From Treponema sp. (lineage in GTDB: Bacteria; Spirochaetota; Spirochaetia; Treponematales; Breznakiellaceae): a DNA stretch of 64,000 bases. The stretch spans positions 1 to 64,000 of the forward strand of contig JAISAQ010000070.1 in assembly GCA_031266775.1 (NCBI GenBank), read 5' to 3'. This document shows positions 1,050-64,000 of the stretch, in pieces. The notes under the pieces were generated by a model. That model did not search any database. It had not been told where the DNA came from and saw only the letters and a program-made list of their open reading frames with translations. Made by a program: the position numbers and the translations under genes. Numbering within the stretch: the stretch's first letter is position 1; each line of letters opens with the position of its first letter.

Positions 1050-2264
1050 ATGTCCAACCGGTCGCTTATAGAAAAAACCTTTGAGGAAGGCCGCGGGATC
1101 TTCCGGTTGAATCCTGTTTTTGTCCCCCGGCCCTTCGGCAAGGCGGGGCGGAGGCTCAAGCTGCACCCGGATGATTATTACGCGCTGGGGCTTGAGCGCG
1201 GTTCAATCAAGGAGAGGTGGTTTTCTTCCACCATTACGGCCCAGAACGGCCCGCTGGCGGCGGCGGATGAGGGGATGAGTTATGTAGCCGCCGGTTACGA
1301 AAACGACGAAAAATTCACCCTCAAGGAGGCTATTGACCTTCTGGGCGCCGGTATTGTCGGGGAAGAACTGATGAAAAAATACGGCGGATGGCCCATGTAT
1401 TCAAAATTTTTCGACTATGGCAATCCCCTTTTTCACCATGTGCACCTCATGTTTGAGGACGCCAGGCGGGTCGGCAAGCTCGGCAAGCCGGAGTCGTACT
1501 ATTTTCCGGAGCAGCTGAACAACCACTCAGGCGAGTTTAACGCCACCTACTTTGGATTCGACCCCGGTACCAAACCGGAACAGGTTAAACAGCGCCTCCG
1601 CGATTACAACAGGGGGGATACCCGCATCACGGAACTTTCGCGGGCGTACCGCATTGAGCTGGGAACGGGCTGGTACACACCCGCGGGGGTTATCCACGCC
1701 CCGGCTTCGGTGCTTACCTATGAGCCGCAGTGGAATTCCGATGTAAACTCGGTTCAGGAAAATGTCGTTTCGGGTGAAATTTACCCCAGGGAATTTCTTG
1801 TGGCCGAATGTCCTCCCGAAAAAAAAGAGGATATTGACTACATTTTCGGCCTTCTTGACTGGGAAAAAAACACCGATCCCAACTACAAAAAACACTATTT
1901 CAGGCCGCCTGTAACCATTGTTTCCGATTCCGCCCATACGGAAAAATGGGTCTCCTACGCCAATGAATATTTCGGCGCGAAGGAACTGACCGTTGAACCG
2001 GGGAGGAGCGTTACGGTCAGGGACGGGGCGGCGTACGGCCTCATCTGCATCCAGGGCCGGGGAAAGCTCGACAAATTCATCATCGAAGCCCCTACCCTGC
2101 TCCGCTTCGGCCGGCAGAGTACGGACGAATTTTTTGTCAGTGAACACACGGCAAAAGACGGCGTGACTCTGGCCAACGAAAGTCCTGTTGAACCGCTTGT
2201 CATTCTGAAGCACTTCGGGCCCAATCACCCGGATATGCCCGGCGTGGTTCCTCCGGAGGCGTAA
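1050..2264 (+). CDS. Cupin-type sugar isomerase-like protein (phosphomannose isomerase-like)
   Basis: A 404-residue cytoplasmic protein. It shows a cupin metal-site pattern: H130 and H132 in FHHVHLMFED, E154 in YYFPEQ and H216 in GWYTPAGVIHAP. This arrangement, together with its sugar-kinase neighbours, is that of phosphomannose-isomerase-type cupins. A second half (about 300-400) looks like another, degenerate beta-barrel. An AAGGAG site 7 nt before the ATG supports the start. It is the first gene of a three-gene operon with an L-xylulose-type kinase 3 nt downstream and an UlaE-type epimerase after that. I infer that it makes the ketose used by the kinase, for example from an aldopentose. 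The true substrate cannot be read from the sequence. Confidence 0.7.
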   Translation: MSNRSLIEKTFEEGRGIFRLNPVFVPRPFGKAGRRLKLHPDDYYALGLERGSIKERWFSSTITAQNGPLAAADEGMSYVAAGYENDEKFTLKEAIDLLGAGIVGEELMKKYGGWPMYSKFFDYGNPLFHHVHLMFEDARRVGKLGKPESYYFPEQLNNHSGEFNATYFGFDPGTKPEQVKQRLRDYNRGDTRITELSRAYRIELGTGWYTPAGVIHAPASVLTYEPQWNSDVNSVQENVVSGEIYPREFLVAECPPEKKEDIDYIFGLLDWEKNTDPNYKKHYFRPPVTIVSDSAHTEKWVSYANEYFGAKELTVEPGRSVTVRDGAAYGLICIQGRGKLDKFIIEAPTLLRFGRQSTDEFFVSEHTAKDGVTLANESPVEPLVILKHFGPNHPDMPGVVPPEA

Positions 2265-57884: not shown

Positions 57885-60800
57885 TTATTCCGCCGCCGAG
57901 AAAAAGAGCTTGTTGGTGTAGTGTTTGCCGTCTTCCGTTCTCGTCGCCATTACCACCACCTCATGCTGTCCCGGCTGGAAATCCGTGACCCTGAGGGACA
58001 GGGAAGTCTGCGTTGAAGAAACAGGCTGCAAAACGTTGTCAACGCGCCATTGGTAAGGCGCGTTGTAATTGTACGCGCCGGCCGGCGTTCTGTTGCCTTT
58101 GAGCGGAATTATCTCTATCGTTAATACGCCGGTACTCTGATCAAAACGTTCGGTGATAAACTTTTCATCCTGAACAGGCTCGTATGTTATGGTGATCCGG
58201 GGGATTTTGGTCAGCTTTAGCGTATATTCGGCGGTGGTATCGTCCCCCGCCTTAACTGTGTAATAGTAACAGTCGGGGAAGACGGTGAACGTTTTTGGAT
58301 CATCCGTGTACACAGCGCCGCTTTGCCCTTGGGGCGCGTCATTCCAGACCGAAGGGAGTACCCCGGAAACTATCCCGGCATACCCGGCCGATTGCCCCAG
58401 ATACGAGATTACGGGCGCAAGGGTCCCGGTTATATTGGCGTCTGCGGGAAGCGCGGCCTCTATGGTATGGGCATCTTGATCTATCTGGGCCACTATTTTG
58501 ACCGTTTCTCCGCCTGAAAGCGGAACCGATTCAAACACAAATCCGGTAATGACCTTTATGCCGCTCCCGGCAACGTGCACCGAAACCGCGTAATTTTTAA
58601 CGCTGCCGTCTTCCGCCGTAACCGTGTAGATCTGGGGAACGCCGAAATTCCGGGGGCTGTCCGTGTACGGATTGGCGGTCTGCGCGGTTCCCCCCTGCGG
58701 GGTAATGGAAACGCCGGTATGGGTTATCACGGGCCGGAGGGCCGTAATGCTGGTGAGGGAAGACACGGTTACCGAAATAGGCGTATACCCGCCGGGATCG
58801 GGGGCCGCGCCTATCACCGTCTCTATGGCCCCCGGAACGGTAAAGGAAGTTATGTCCTTTGTGCCCGCCGGTTTGAGAATTACCCGCACCGTGTAGGGCT
58901 GGATCGTGCCGTTCCGGGCGGTAACGGTGTAAACCACCGGGGAACTGAAATTCCGCGCCGCGCCTGACGCCGGGCTCAGGGAGACCCCCTTGTAGGCCAC
59001 GGTGGGGGCAAGAGCGGCAAGGCCGGTCCCGGAGGGAACCGTTACGGTAATGGTTTTGGCGCCCTCGTCAATGACCCCCACCGCCGCGGGGGCGGTAAAA
59101 TAAAACCCGGTGATCTGTTTTACATTGTTGTCATCCGTGCGGACGGTAACCTTGTACCGGCTGCTCTGGCCGTTTGCCGCCGTTACCGTGTAGTCCCGGG
59201 GACTGGTAAAGTCTACGACAGAGACTCCCACTATGCCTTTCATTTCCGGGTCGGTAGGGTGGTCCTCAGGGGGATCGAAAGTCTCCCCCGCGCTGCCGCT
59301 AATCGAAACACCTTTATAAAGGATTACGGGCTTAAGGTCCGGGTTAGAGTCCGTGAGGTCGGTATTTTCAGGGACTATTACTTCAACAGGGTAATTCCCG
59401 GAAGAGTCCTGCACGGTAGATACGGCGGTGGTAATATCTACGTCGTCAATCCCAAAAAATGAAAAGAAGCTTATTTCCCTGACGCCGCTGAGCGGAGGCG
59501 CGGGGGCAACATTTACGGTTACCGTATAGGTTTCGCAATAAATTGGATTTCGACTCAAAGGCGTTACCGTGTACCGGACAGGAACGGTAAAATCAGTAGT
59601 GGTACTGTGAGTAAAATCGGCGGGGATGCCGGCGGGAGAACTCATGGCCGGTTTGAATACCTCTATCCCGCCAATCATACTGGAAGTCGGCGGAGTGGTA
59701 GTATCAGCGGTTGATCCCTCGACAACAATATTCCCCGTAAAGTAGATGGCGGGGACCAGATTGGTCAAAACCGTACCGTAGGGAACCGTAACGGTGATGG
59801 TTCCGGCGTTTTGATTTATTGTCCCGGCGGCCGGGGGGCTGGTAAAATAAAAGCCGTCTATACTGGCGTCGTCGCTTAACGCGAGAGGGGCGGGATTCGC
59901 GGCTCTTACTACGGTTACGCTATACTTCTGCGTGGTCCCGTCCTCGGCCGTTACCGTATACTCCGCAGGGGTAGTAAAGTTCGTGTTCGTCGAACCTGTC
60001 ACCGCGCCGGGGCCGGTCCCCGAAACGCCGGGCCCTGAAACCGAAACCCCCGTGAAGGTAAGCTCCGGGGTAAGTTTCGACAGATCCGTTACCTCCCCCG
60101 GCTTGCTATAATAGGGAACCGTTACGCTGATGGGGATCTTCCCGTCCGGCGCCGGGCCGGAACCTATGATCGTGGTTTCGCCGCCCACATTGGCAAAACC
60201 AAAGGCGGTAACCGCCTTGTCGCCCCGTTTCGCCGGATACACCCGCACCGCGTAACGCGCCGAGGTTCCGTCACGGGCCCATACCGTATAGTAAACGGGA
60301 ACCTGCGCCGAATTGGAAAAATCAACCTGTTGCCCGGAAACGGGGCCTACCGATTCCCCGGTATGGTAGACCGCCGGGGCAAGGGTCGTCAAATCCGTCC
60401 CCGGCGGAACGGTAACGGTGATGGTTTTGGCCGCCTCGTCGATGATGCCGGCCGGCGCTCCTGTTCCCTGGGGATTGTTGAGGAAGGGGAAATAAAAACC
60501 TGTAATCGCCTTGCCCGTGTTGAACTCAAGAACCGTTACTTCGTATACCTGCTCGCTCCCGTCTTCCGCCCTTACCGTGTAAGGTTGGACACTGGAAAAA
60601 TCCCGCAAGCCGCTACCCGGCACAGGGACCGCCGCTTCCATGTCCGCGTCTGAAAGCCGGGTATGTGAAATCCCCGCCCCGCTGACCGAAGCGCCCCTGT
60701 AGGTGAGGCTGGGAGTAAGGTGCTTCAGGTCTGTACCTGCCGGAACCATTGCTATAATGGGGATCTTCCCGTCCGCGTCACGATCCGCGCTTATTATCGG

Positions 60801-61583
60801 GGGTTTCATATCCACTCCGTTAAAGGAAAGCGCCGTTATCGCTTTTACGGAAGATTTCTCCCGGACAACCCTGACATTGTAGAGATTGGACCCGCCTTCT
60901 CCCGTTACCGTATAGAGCACCGGGCTGGAAAAATTGCCGGTTAAGGACACGGCGGTTCCCGAGGCGGACCGGCCGCCGCCGCTCACGGACTGGCCTGTCT
61001 GGACAATTTTCGCGGTAAGGTTCGCAAGATTCGTTTCGCTGGGGACATTGAGGATAATTTCCCCCACCCCTCCCTCCGGAGGCTGCTGTACTACCCCTTC
61101 CACCATATTCGGGCCCGCGGCATTCGAAAGATCAAACCGGACAATTTCGGGGGACAGGAGAACTTTTACGGACACCTTGACCTTGTAATCCCGGGTGCTT
61201 CCGTCCCGGGCGGTAACCGTGTAGGTTACGGGATCGCCGAAATCCGCCGGCGTTCCCGAAGCGGGGCTCACGGACTTGCCGTCAATGGTTATGGCCGGAA
61301 CCAGGCTGCCCGTTGGAGTGCCCGCCGGCACCACCACGGTAATGGGGATCTCCTTGCCGATCTCACCCATAAACATGAGCGGTTCGGCCTCTATTACCGC
61401 CGTTTCTCCCAAACCGAAGGAAAAGGTAGTTATCGTTTTGGCGGAATCGGACACAAAGGAAGCGGTACCGGAACCGGAATTAATGACGGTATCTGAGGGC
61501 GTATCTATCCATTTTAAGAGGGGATTGGAACAGGCGGCAACAAACGCCGCGAGCATTGCCGGGAGCAAGAAACGCTTTCTCAT
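57885..61583 (-). CDS. Giant lipoprotein with ten DUF5018-like repeats
   Basis: 1232 residues from the ATG at 61583 (AAGGGA 6 nt upstream; a start six codons earlier lacks one). Lipobox FVAAC (Cys18). The body is ten repeats of about 95-115 residues, each with a TVPxGTDLxxLxP strand, an S..G..V.PASG loop and a YTVTAxDGSxxxYxVxV closing strand. A C-terminal domain ends in HEVVVMATRTEDGKHY. No beta-helix here, unlike its neighbour. Likely a long surface rod; ligand unknown. First gene of the surface/Bat block. Confidence 0.8.
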   Translation of the reverse strand: MRKRFLLPAMLAAFVAACSNPLLKWIDTPSDTVINSGSGTASFVSDSAKTITTFSFGLGETAVIEAEPLMFMGEIGKEIPITVVVPAGTPTGSLVPAITIDGKSVSPASGTPADFGDPVTYTVTARDGSTRDYKVKVSVKVLLSPEIVRFDLSNAAGPNMVEGVVQQPPEGGVGEIILNVPSETNLANLTAKIVQTGQSVSGGGRSASGTAVSLTGNFSSPVLYTVTGEGGSNLYNVRVVREKSSVKAITALSFNGVDMKPPIISADRDADGKIPIIAMVPAGTDLKHLTPSLTYRGASVSGAGISHTRLSDADMEAAVPVPGSGLRDFSSVQPYTVRAEDGSEQVYEVTVLEFNTGKAITGFYFPFLNNPQGTGAPAGIIDEAAKTITVTVPPGTDLTTLAPAVYHTGESVGPVSGQQVDFSNSAQVPVYYTVWARDGTSARYAVRVYPAKRGDKAVTAFGFANVGGETTIIGSGPAPDGKIPISVTVPYYSKPGEVTDLSKLTPELTFTGVSVSGPGVSGTGPGAVTGSTNTNFTTPAEYTVTAEDGTTQKYSVTVVRAANPAPLALSDDASIDGFYFTSPPAAGTINQNAGTITVTVPYGTVLTNLVPAIYFTGNIVVEGSTADTTTPPTSSMIGGIEVFKPAMSSPAGIPADFTHSTTTDFTVPVRYTVTPLSRNPIYCETYTVTVNVAPAPPLSGVREISFFSFFGIDDVDITTAVSTVQDSSGNYPVEVIVPENTDLTDSNPDLKPVILYKGVSISGSAGETFDPPEDHPTDPEMKGIVGVSVVDFTSPRDYTVTAANGQSSRYKVTVRTDDNNVKQITGFYFTAPAAVGVIDEGAKTITVTVPSGTGLAALAPTVAYKGVSLSPASGAARNFSSPVVYTVTARNGTIQPYTVRVILKPAGTKDITSFTVPGAIETVIGAAPDPGGYTPISVTVSSLTSITALRPVITHTGVSITPQGGTAQTANPYTDSPRNFGVPQIYTVTAEDGSVKNYAVSVHVAGSGIKVITGFVFESVPLSGGETVKIVAQIDQDAHTIEAALPADANITGTLAPVISYLGQSAGYAGIVSGVLPSVWNDAPQGQSGAVYTDDPKTFTVFPDCYYYTVKAGDDTTAEYTLKLTKIPRITITYEPVQDEKFITERFDQSTGVLTIEIIPLKGNRTPAGAYNYNAPYQWRVDNVLQPVSSTQTSLSLRVTDFQPGQHEVVVMATRTEDGKHYTNKLFFSAAE

Positions 61584-61601
61584 AACGGTCCCTTTTTTCA
61601 T

Positions 61602-63783: not shown

Positions 63784-63790
63784 TGATATA

Positions 63791-63841
63791 ATAATATCCC
63801 TCTTGGCAAGGATTGACAAGCGGAAAAAGGCAAAATACGAT
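63791..63841. promoter_or_regulatory. Overlapping divergent promoters, both leaderless
   Basis: Minus strand: TTGTCA (63814-63819), 17 nt, TATTAT (63791-63796), start at the ATG of 63783. Plus strand: TTGACA (63813-63818), 17 nt, TACGAT (63836-63841), start at the ATG of 63848. The two -35 boxes share five base pairs, so polymerase binding for one gene excludes the other. Confidence 0.6.
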
Positions 63842-63847
63842 CGTACC

Positions 63848-64000
63848 ATGTTCTTCCGCCGTTTTGCCGCCGCGCAGATCTTCTGTGTTTTGTTTGCCGC
63901 ATCTCTGTGCACGCTTTCCTGCTCGCCGGGATGTGAAGTCGCCGTTCTCTGGACCGACAGGCCGGAATTCGCCCTTTATACGGAATACTTCAATTCCGTT
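63848..64000 (+). CDS. Lipoprotein, probable solute-binding protein (partial)
   Basis: Only 51 residues are in the window; the window edge cuts it. A signal peptide with Cys in CTLSC (lipobox) is followed by SPGCEVAVLWTDRPEFALYT, which looks like the start of an extracellular solute-binding protein. No ribosome site precedes the ATG; TACGAT lies 6 nt upstream. The divergent neighbour shares its promoter region. Confidence 0.6.
   Translation, partial: MFFRRFAAAQIFCVLFAASLCTLSCSPGCEVAVLWTDRPEFALYTEYFNSV

Follow-up and report, generated by a model that had tools for sequence, protein, structure and literature searches.

A conserved −35 element shared by two divergent promoters with predicted leaderless messages in Treponema sp. 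and related spirochaetes

Bidirectional promoters, as described in excerpts of two reports (PMC12825309, PMC10268837), share a −10 element, and their divergent start sites lie 7–25 bp apart, most often 18 bp. Promoters of this type, characterised by Warman, Grainger and colleagues in E. coli (PMC12825309) and on Salmonella plasmids (PMC10268837), resemble the locus analysed here in that, according to the same excerpts, symmetry of an element lets the polymerase start divergently. In those promoters, however, it is the −10 that is shared and the starts are mostly 18 bp apart, whereas the present locus shares the −35 and has its predicted starts at two start codons, separated by 65 bp. Divergent overlap of promoters, of which polymerase occupies only one, is also known for Pc and Pr of plasmid pLS20. 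In the portion of that paper available (PMC4207663) each promoter is proposed to have its −10 where the other has its −35, and a regulator together with DNA looping makes the switch; at the present site the sharing is confined to the −35, and no regulator was found. Leaderless genes of Leptospira interrogans (PMC5243855) and those collected by Zheng et al. 2011 (PMC3160421) likewise start at, or within a few nucleotides of, the start codon. In the accessible parts of these sources they are taken singly, while here two of them are placed on one −35 and are conserved together. A conserved pair of promoters with a shared −35 was not recognised in titles and abstracts of the open-access literature, in which the sign “−35” is not searchable as such.

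Layout of the intergenic region and the two genes

The window, i.e. the whole analysed stretch of 64,000 nucleotides, ends with two divergent genes, the start codons of which (ATG 63783 on the minus strand and ATG 63848 on the plus strand) are separated by 64 bases. Direct reading of these bases reveals two sigma-70-like promoters composed of the following features.

63813–63819, both strands: shared palindromic −35 heptamer TTGACAA, read as TTGACA on the plus strand (63813–63818) and as TTGTCA on the minus strand (63819–63814); relatives keep TTGTCAA
63810–63821, plus strand: conserved 12-bp block GGATTGACAAGC enclosing the −35, with a single exact occurrence in the genome
63836–63841, plus strand: −10 box TACGAT of the plus promoter, TAGGAT in most relatives
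63791–63796, minus strand: −10 box TATTAT of the minus promoter
63848, plus strand: predicted transcription start at the A of ATG, deduced from the −10 spacing
63783, minus strand: predicted transcription start at the A of ATG, deduced from its short distance to the −10, at most 10 nt in 54 of the 63 loci scored
63301–63783, minus strand: gene of P1, a 160-aa all-helical protein found order-wide in these spirochaetes (homology and structure model)
63848–64000 and on to contig position 65098, plus strand: gene of the divergent 416-aa lipoprotein (PF01547 and PF13416, both sub-threshold)

The plus promoter reads TTGACA-N17-TACGAT followed by 6 nt and ATG 63848, and the minus promoter TTGTCA-N17-TATTAT followed by 7 nt and ATG 63783. 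Since TTGWCAA is palindromic around its middle base, the two −35 hexamers agree at five of six positions. This overlap, as well as the 17-nt spacers on both sides, had been proposed in an earlier note made from the sequence of the window, and direct reading bears them out. The promoters were called there “face-to-face”, which is the wrong word for their orientation, as they are divergent and stand back-to-back. The note had also held that a Shine-Dalgarno sequence is absent, and indeed direct reading found none at normal spacing before either gene. The motif GAGGG before the minus gene stands some 14 nt from the ATG and precedes the predicted start site, and would therefore stay outside the mRNA.

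Compared with the described bidirectional promoters, the two −10 boxes are separate rather than one symmetrical element, and the distance between the predicted starts is beyond the range of 7–25 bp. The general property of the class, one symmetrical element serving both directions, is consistent with the sequence and with the pattern of partner loss considered below. The site departs from the shared −10 definition by sharing the −35 instead and is, judging by its sequence, a variant of bidirectional promoters.

P1 has no family match in Pfam or NCBIfam. Its structure was modelled confidently as all-helical (pLDDT 88), and Foldseek gave no fold match in PDB at E ≤ 0.001. Such residues of P1 as N22, N114 and D120 are invariant. 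The N-terminus of the 416-aa protein resembles a lipoprotein signal, and the protein shows weak, below-cut-off similarity to the solute-binding families PF01547 and PF13416.

In the 464 kb sampled (20 stretches of the same genome and the window) this is the sole instance of a shared −35 combined with −10 boxes and with start codons at 4–8 nt on both sides. Five block-shuffled controls, scored with no requirement for open reading frames, contained 0, 1, 0, 2 and 0 such sites. With thresholds this loose the sequence, taken singly, is no more than mildly unusual and weak evidence by itself; it is conservation across relatives that excludes chance.

The arrangement among relatives and the constraint on its boxes

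P1 was matched in 55 of the 97 genomes searched, the window's own counted, and the set of P1 loci comprised 95 entries including the named ones, 78 of them distinct. Among the named relatives metagenome genomes of Treponema and Spirochaetaceae predominate, many of which presumably come from termite guts; the set also contains Breznakiella homolactica and Gracilinema caldarium, both belonging to Breznakiellaceae, order Treponematales. The same lipoprotein gene divergently adjoins P1, its aligned part being within 320 nt, at 52 of the 78 distinct loci, and in 37 of these 52 TTGWCAA is flanked on either side by a −10 at 16–18 bp. When both start codons, after correction, were required to lie 4–10 nt from the −10, 27 loci passed, and subtraction of locus L034 left 26 of 52 with a truly shared −35 and both starts 5–10 nt after the −10. 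All starts in these 26 loci are ATG on both sides and the gap between them is 62–67 nt in every case, as expected if promoter geometry alone fixes both distances and there is no leader. On the plus side the distance of 5–8 nt from the −10 to the start is kept in the 27 loci that passed. Starts are not both close in 11 of the 37 loci with the shared element, most of which have a leadered P1 with a TTG start. The arrangement is absent from 15 of the 52 lipoprotein-bearing loci, mostly of other families, where P1 mostly has TATACT a few bases before ATG and no TTG −35.

In the locus set aside, L034, the −35 block is present twice upstream of P1, one copy per promoter, which looks like a duplication of the intergenic region that uncoupled the promoters. 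Judging by this locus, sharing of the −35 is not strictly required. At locus L056 a tRNA-Val gene (1702–1775, plus strand), divergent from P1 on the minus strand, takes the usual place of the lipoprotein gene, with a −10 box TATAGT on its side 18 bp from the same conserved heptamer. Outside the window's family, in other families of the order (L040–L050, L053, L054, L055, L057, L092 and L094), most P1 genes combine TATACT or TATAAT 6–10 nt before ATG with the lack of a TTG −35, so that leaderless initiation of P1 may predate the shared box. One genome of the same genus (L051, G001:C152) contains a further P1 gene, more distant (66% identity), which has the −35 TTGTCA and no lipoprotein neighbour.

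The sequence logo was conditioned on the motif, and this condition was relaxed in the analysis of identity, which covered 42 of the 52 lipoprotein-bearing loci, the 10 without a TTG −35 at threshold being dropped. Mean pairwise identity of the 11-bp core in these 42 loci was 0.89, compared with 0.30 in the spacer on the P1 side, 0.34 in that on the lipoprotein side and 0.37 at fourfold-degenerate sites of P1. The boxes are, by this comparison of sequences, held while their surroundings are saturated.

Loss of the lipoprotein partner gives an indication of which strand holds which base. For this comparison 16 of the 26 loci without the lipoprotein were taken, leaving out L004 (contig edge) and nine without a TTG −35; the −35 of L011 was set by hand to TTGTAT. 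Position 4 of the heptamer is T at 41 of 42 loci with the lipoprotein and at 9 of 16 without it, and beside the lipoprotein this T is kept although the P1 consensus would be A. Position 5 is C in 39 of 42 versus 4 of 16, and T directly follows the heptamer in 41 of 42 versus 5 of 16. Bases needed for P1 persist without the lipoprotein: C before the heptamer in 14 of 16, TTG in 16 of 16 (being the condition of entry for these loci) and the last A in 15 of 16. Bases of the lipoprotein strand drift on partner loss and those of P1 stay, therefore each strand appears to hold its part of the heptamer. Fisher P values, both here and in the comparison of start codons, ignore relatedness. Partner loss corresponds to about five changes on the tree and gain of a leader also to about five, and independent-pairs tests (77 of 78 rows, L059 being too short) gave two and three supported pairs, which is not significant. 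The pattern seen on partner loss is strong, and its replication is limited.

Predicted leaderless initiation

Start codons of P1 were analysed at 63 of the 78 loci; the other 15 had a promoter score above 3, and all their starts were ATG. The distance from the −10 to the start was 10 nt or less at 54 of the 63, with ATG in 53 cases and GTG in one. A Shine-Dalgarno core was flagged in 8 of these 54, and in 6 of the 8 it is 12–13 nt upstream, before the predicted transcript. Where the distance exceeded 10 nt, the start was TTG in 9 of 9 loci and a Shine-Dalgarno sequence was present in 7 of 9. Across the aligned loci the predicted promoter stays put, while the start codon of P1 moves and changes its type.

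Leaderless genes are expected to have the −10 about 6–8 nt upstream of the start codon and a transcript free of Shine-Dalgarno sequences; the two genes of the window, with 6 and 7 nt, agree with both expectations. Among 88 promoter–gene pairs found within 60 nt in the same 464 kb, the distance between −10 and ATG peaks at 6 and 7 nt (14 pairs), other distances being represented on average by about 1.3 pairs each. The pattern TTGACA-(16–18)-TANNAT-(4–8)-ATG occurs 26 times in the whole genome versus 0 for the reversed pattern. Leptospira is a distant spirochaete. About 440 mRNAs with a 5′UTR under 10 nt are reported for L. interrogans in the part of the study available (PMC5243855), and leaderless genes are predicted in 6 of 18 Spirochaetes genomes in that of Zheng et al. 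2011 (PMC3160421). Leaderless initiation is plausible in this genome as well. The earlier suggestion of two leaderless mRNAs from promoters sharing one −35 stands, as a well-supported inference from comparison of loci, with regard both to leaderless initiation and to the dual use of the −35.

Two probable outputs from one −35 and the competing readings

Most probably, the sequences represent a conserved bidirectional promoter of sigma-70 type, centred on one −35 and giving two leaderless mRNAs as a compact two-output unit. Sigma region 4 would dock on either strand of the palindromic TTGWCAA, with a −10 available at 17–18 bp on each side of the heptamer, and each transcript would start at the A of ATG, or 1–2 bases from it, to be translated without a Shine-Dalgarno sequence. 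The lipoprotein side combines a perfect −35 with a weak −10 and the P1 side an imperfect −35 with a better −10. Both promoters are presumed to be active and their polymerases to exclude each other; two holoenzymes cannot occupy one −35 at once. The likely consequence is a compact unit with two modest, roughly balanced outputs, in which competition would have an effect only under strong activation of one side.

The earlier note had gone further, stating that the genes must compete in a mutually exclusive switch. Its steric part, one polymerase at a time, holds, while the switch itself exceeds the evidence. A true switch, in which polymerases compete at the shared −35, probably with the aid of a regulator, and the genes alternate, could draw on the shared −35, on the conserved geometry and on the overlapping divergent promoters of pLS20, which are described as part of a switch in the portion of the paper at hand (PMC4207663). 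It is nevertheless improbable. Neither a regulator nor opposite regulation of the P1 and lipoprotein genes was found, and L034 has separate −35 copies. At five bidirectional promoters of E. coli basal transcription was, according to the abstract of PMC12825309, too low for competition, and one side, once substantially activated, was able to repress the opposite one. As there is no basal competition at these promoters, the simplest reading is a compact two-way promoter and not a bistable switch; a two-state switch is possible. Still less credible, and in our estimation close to negligible, is that one gene starts further upstream, inside the promoter of the other, and the boxes are accidental. 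In this genome both frames can indeed be extended upstream, as far as TTG 63803 and GTG 63912, and the single-sequence statistics are modest. However, an in-frame stop precedes the plus-strand ATG in 23 of the 27 loci with both starts close, the spacers are saturated and the boxes fixed, and homology of P1 begins at its ATG.

The 12-bp block could also be mainly an operator, so that a regulator bound over the −35 controls both genes and sharing follows from it. This we hold to be rather unlikely, though more worthy of attention than the switch. Conservation passes both hexamers (GCTTGTCAATCC), reaching L096 with its 42% identity of P1, the flanking TCC goes with the lipoprotein side in the partner-loss comparison, and other TTGACA promoters of this genome (16 sites) are without these flanks. 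Plain sigma binding does not account for conservation beyond the hexamers, a point against the preferred reading of a two-way promoter. On the other hand, across 58 family genomes the block combined with TAGGAT is matched ten times, in each case, judging by coordinates, at the P1 locus, which gives no regulon; P1 has no significant DNA-binding homologue, and some lineages have kept the gene pair and lost the block. A dedicated regulator of the pair may exist.

Two candidates of this kind were rejected. A regulon of the 12-bp block was dismissed, as the genome has one exact copy of it. A search for near matches in the genome gave 19 hits versus 6 for a reversed-pattern control; of the 18 one-mismatch sites read by eye one (C33:31014) is promoter-like and no promoter was recognised at the others. 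In the 58 family genomes the exact block had 27 hits, 14 of them at the P1 locus by coordinates. P1 as an autoregulator acting through the block found no support: HpaR matches it without significance (E 0.11), no Foldseek match reached E ≤ 0.001, and P1 is still present in loci that have lost the block.

Returning to the two-way promoter, one may tentatively, and with somewhat more doubt than trust, generalise it to a “−35-centred” class of bidirectional promoters. Polymerase would orient on palindromic TTGWCAA, the element would set the ratio of the lipoprotein to the helical protein through deep spirochaete evolution, and, with both messages leaderless, geometry would fix the 64-bp region. 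If true, the conserved shared −35 would show that the other half of a promoter is also readable both ways. The relatives supply natural experiments, namely a lost partner, a partner replaced by a tRNA gene, a duplicated −35 and a start codon moved downstream with a Shine-Dalgarno sequence gained, and therefore make the locus well suited to clean tests of polymerase competition and of transitions between leaderless and leadered states.

Some neighbouring genes were noted in passing. Downstream of the lipoprotein gene, at contig position 65199, a 143-aa protein of unknown function is encoded (L032, 5199–5627, plus strand). In several relatives that lack the lipoprotein, an apparent homologue of this protein, recognised by eye, is encoded divergently next to P1, with a Shine-Dalgarno-like sequence. 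Within the window, positions 57885–61601 of the minus strand contain a predicted lipoprotein-like open reading frame of 1238 aa with many repeats resembling YTVTAEDGS.
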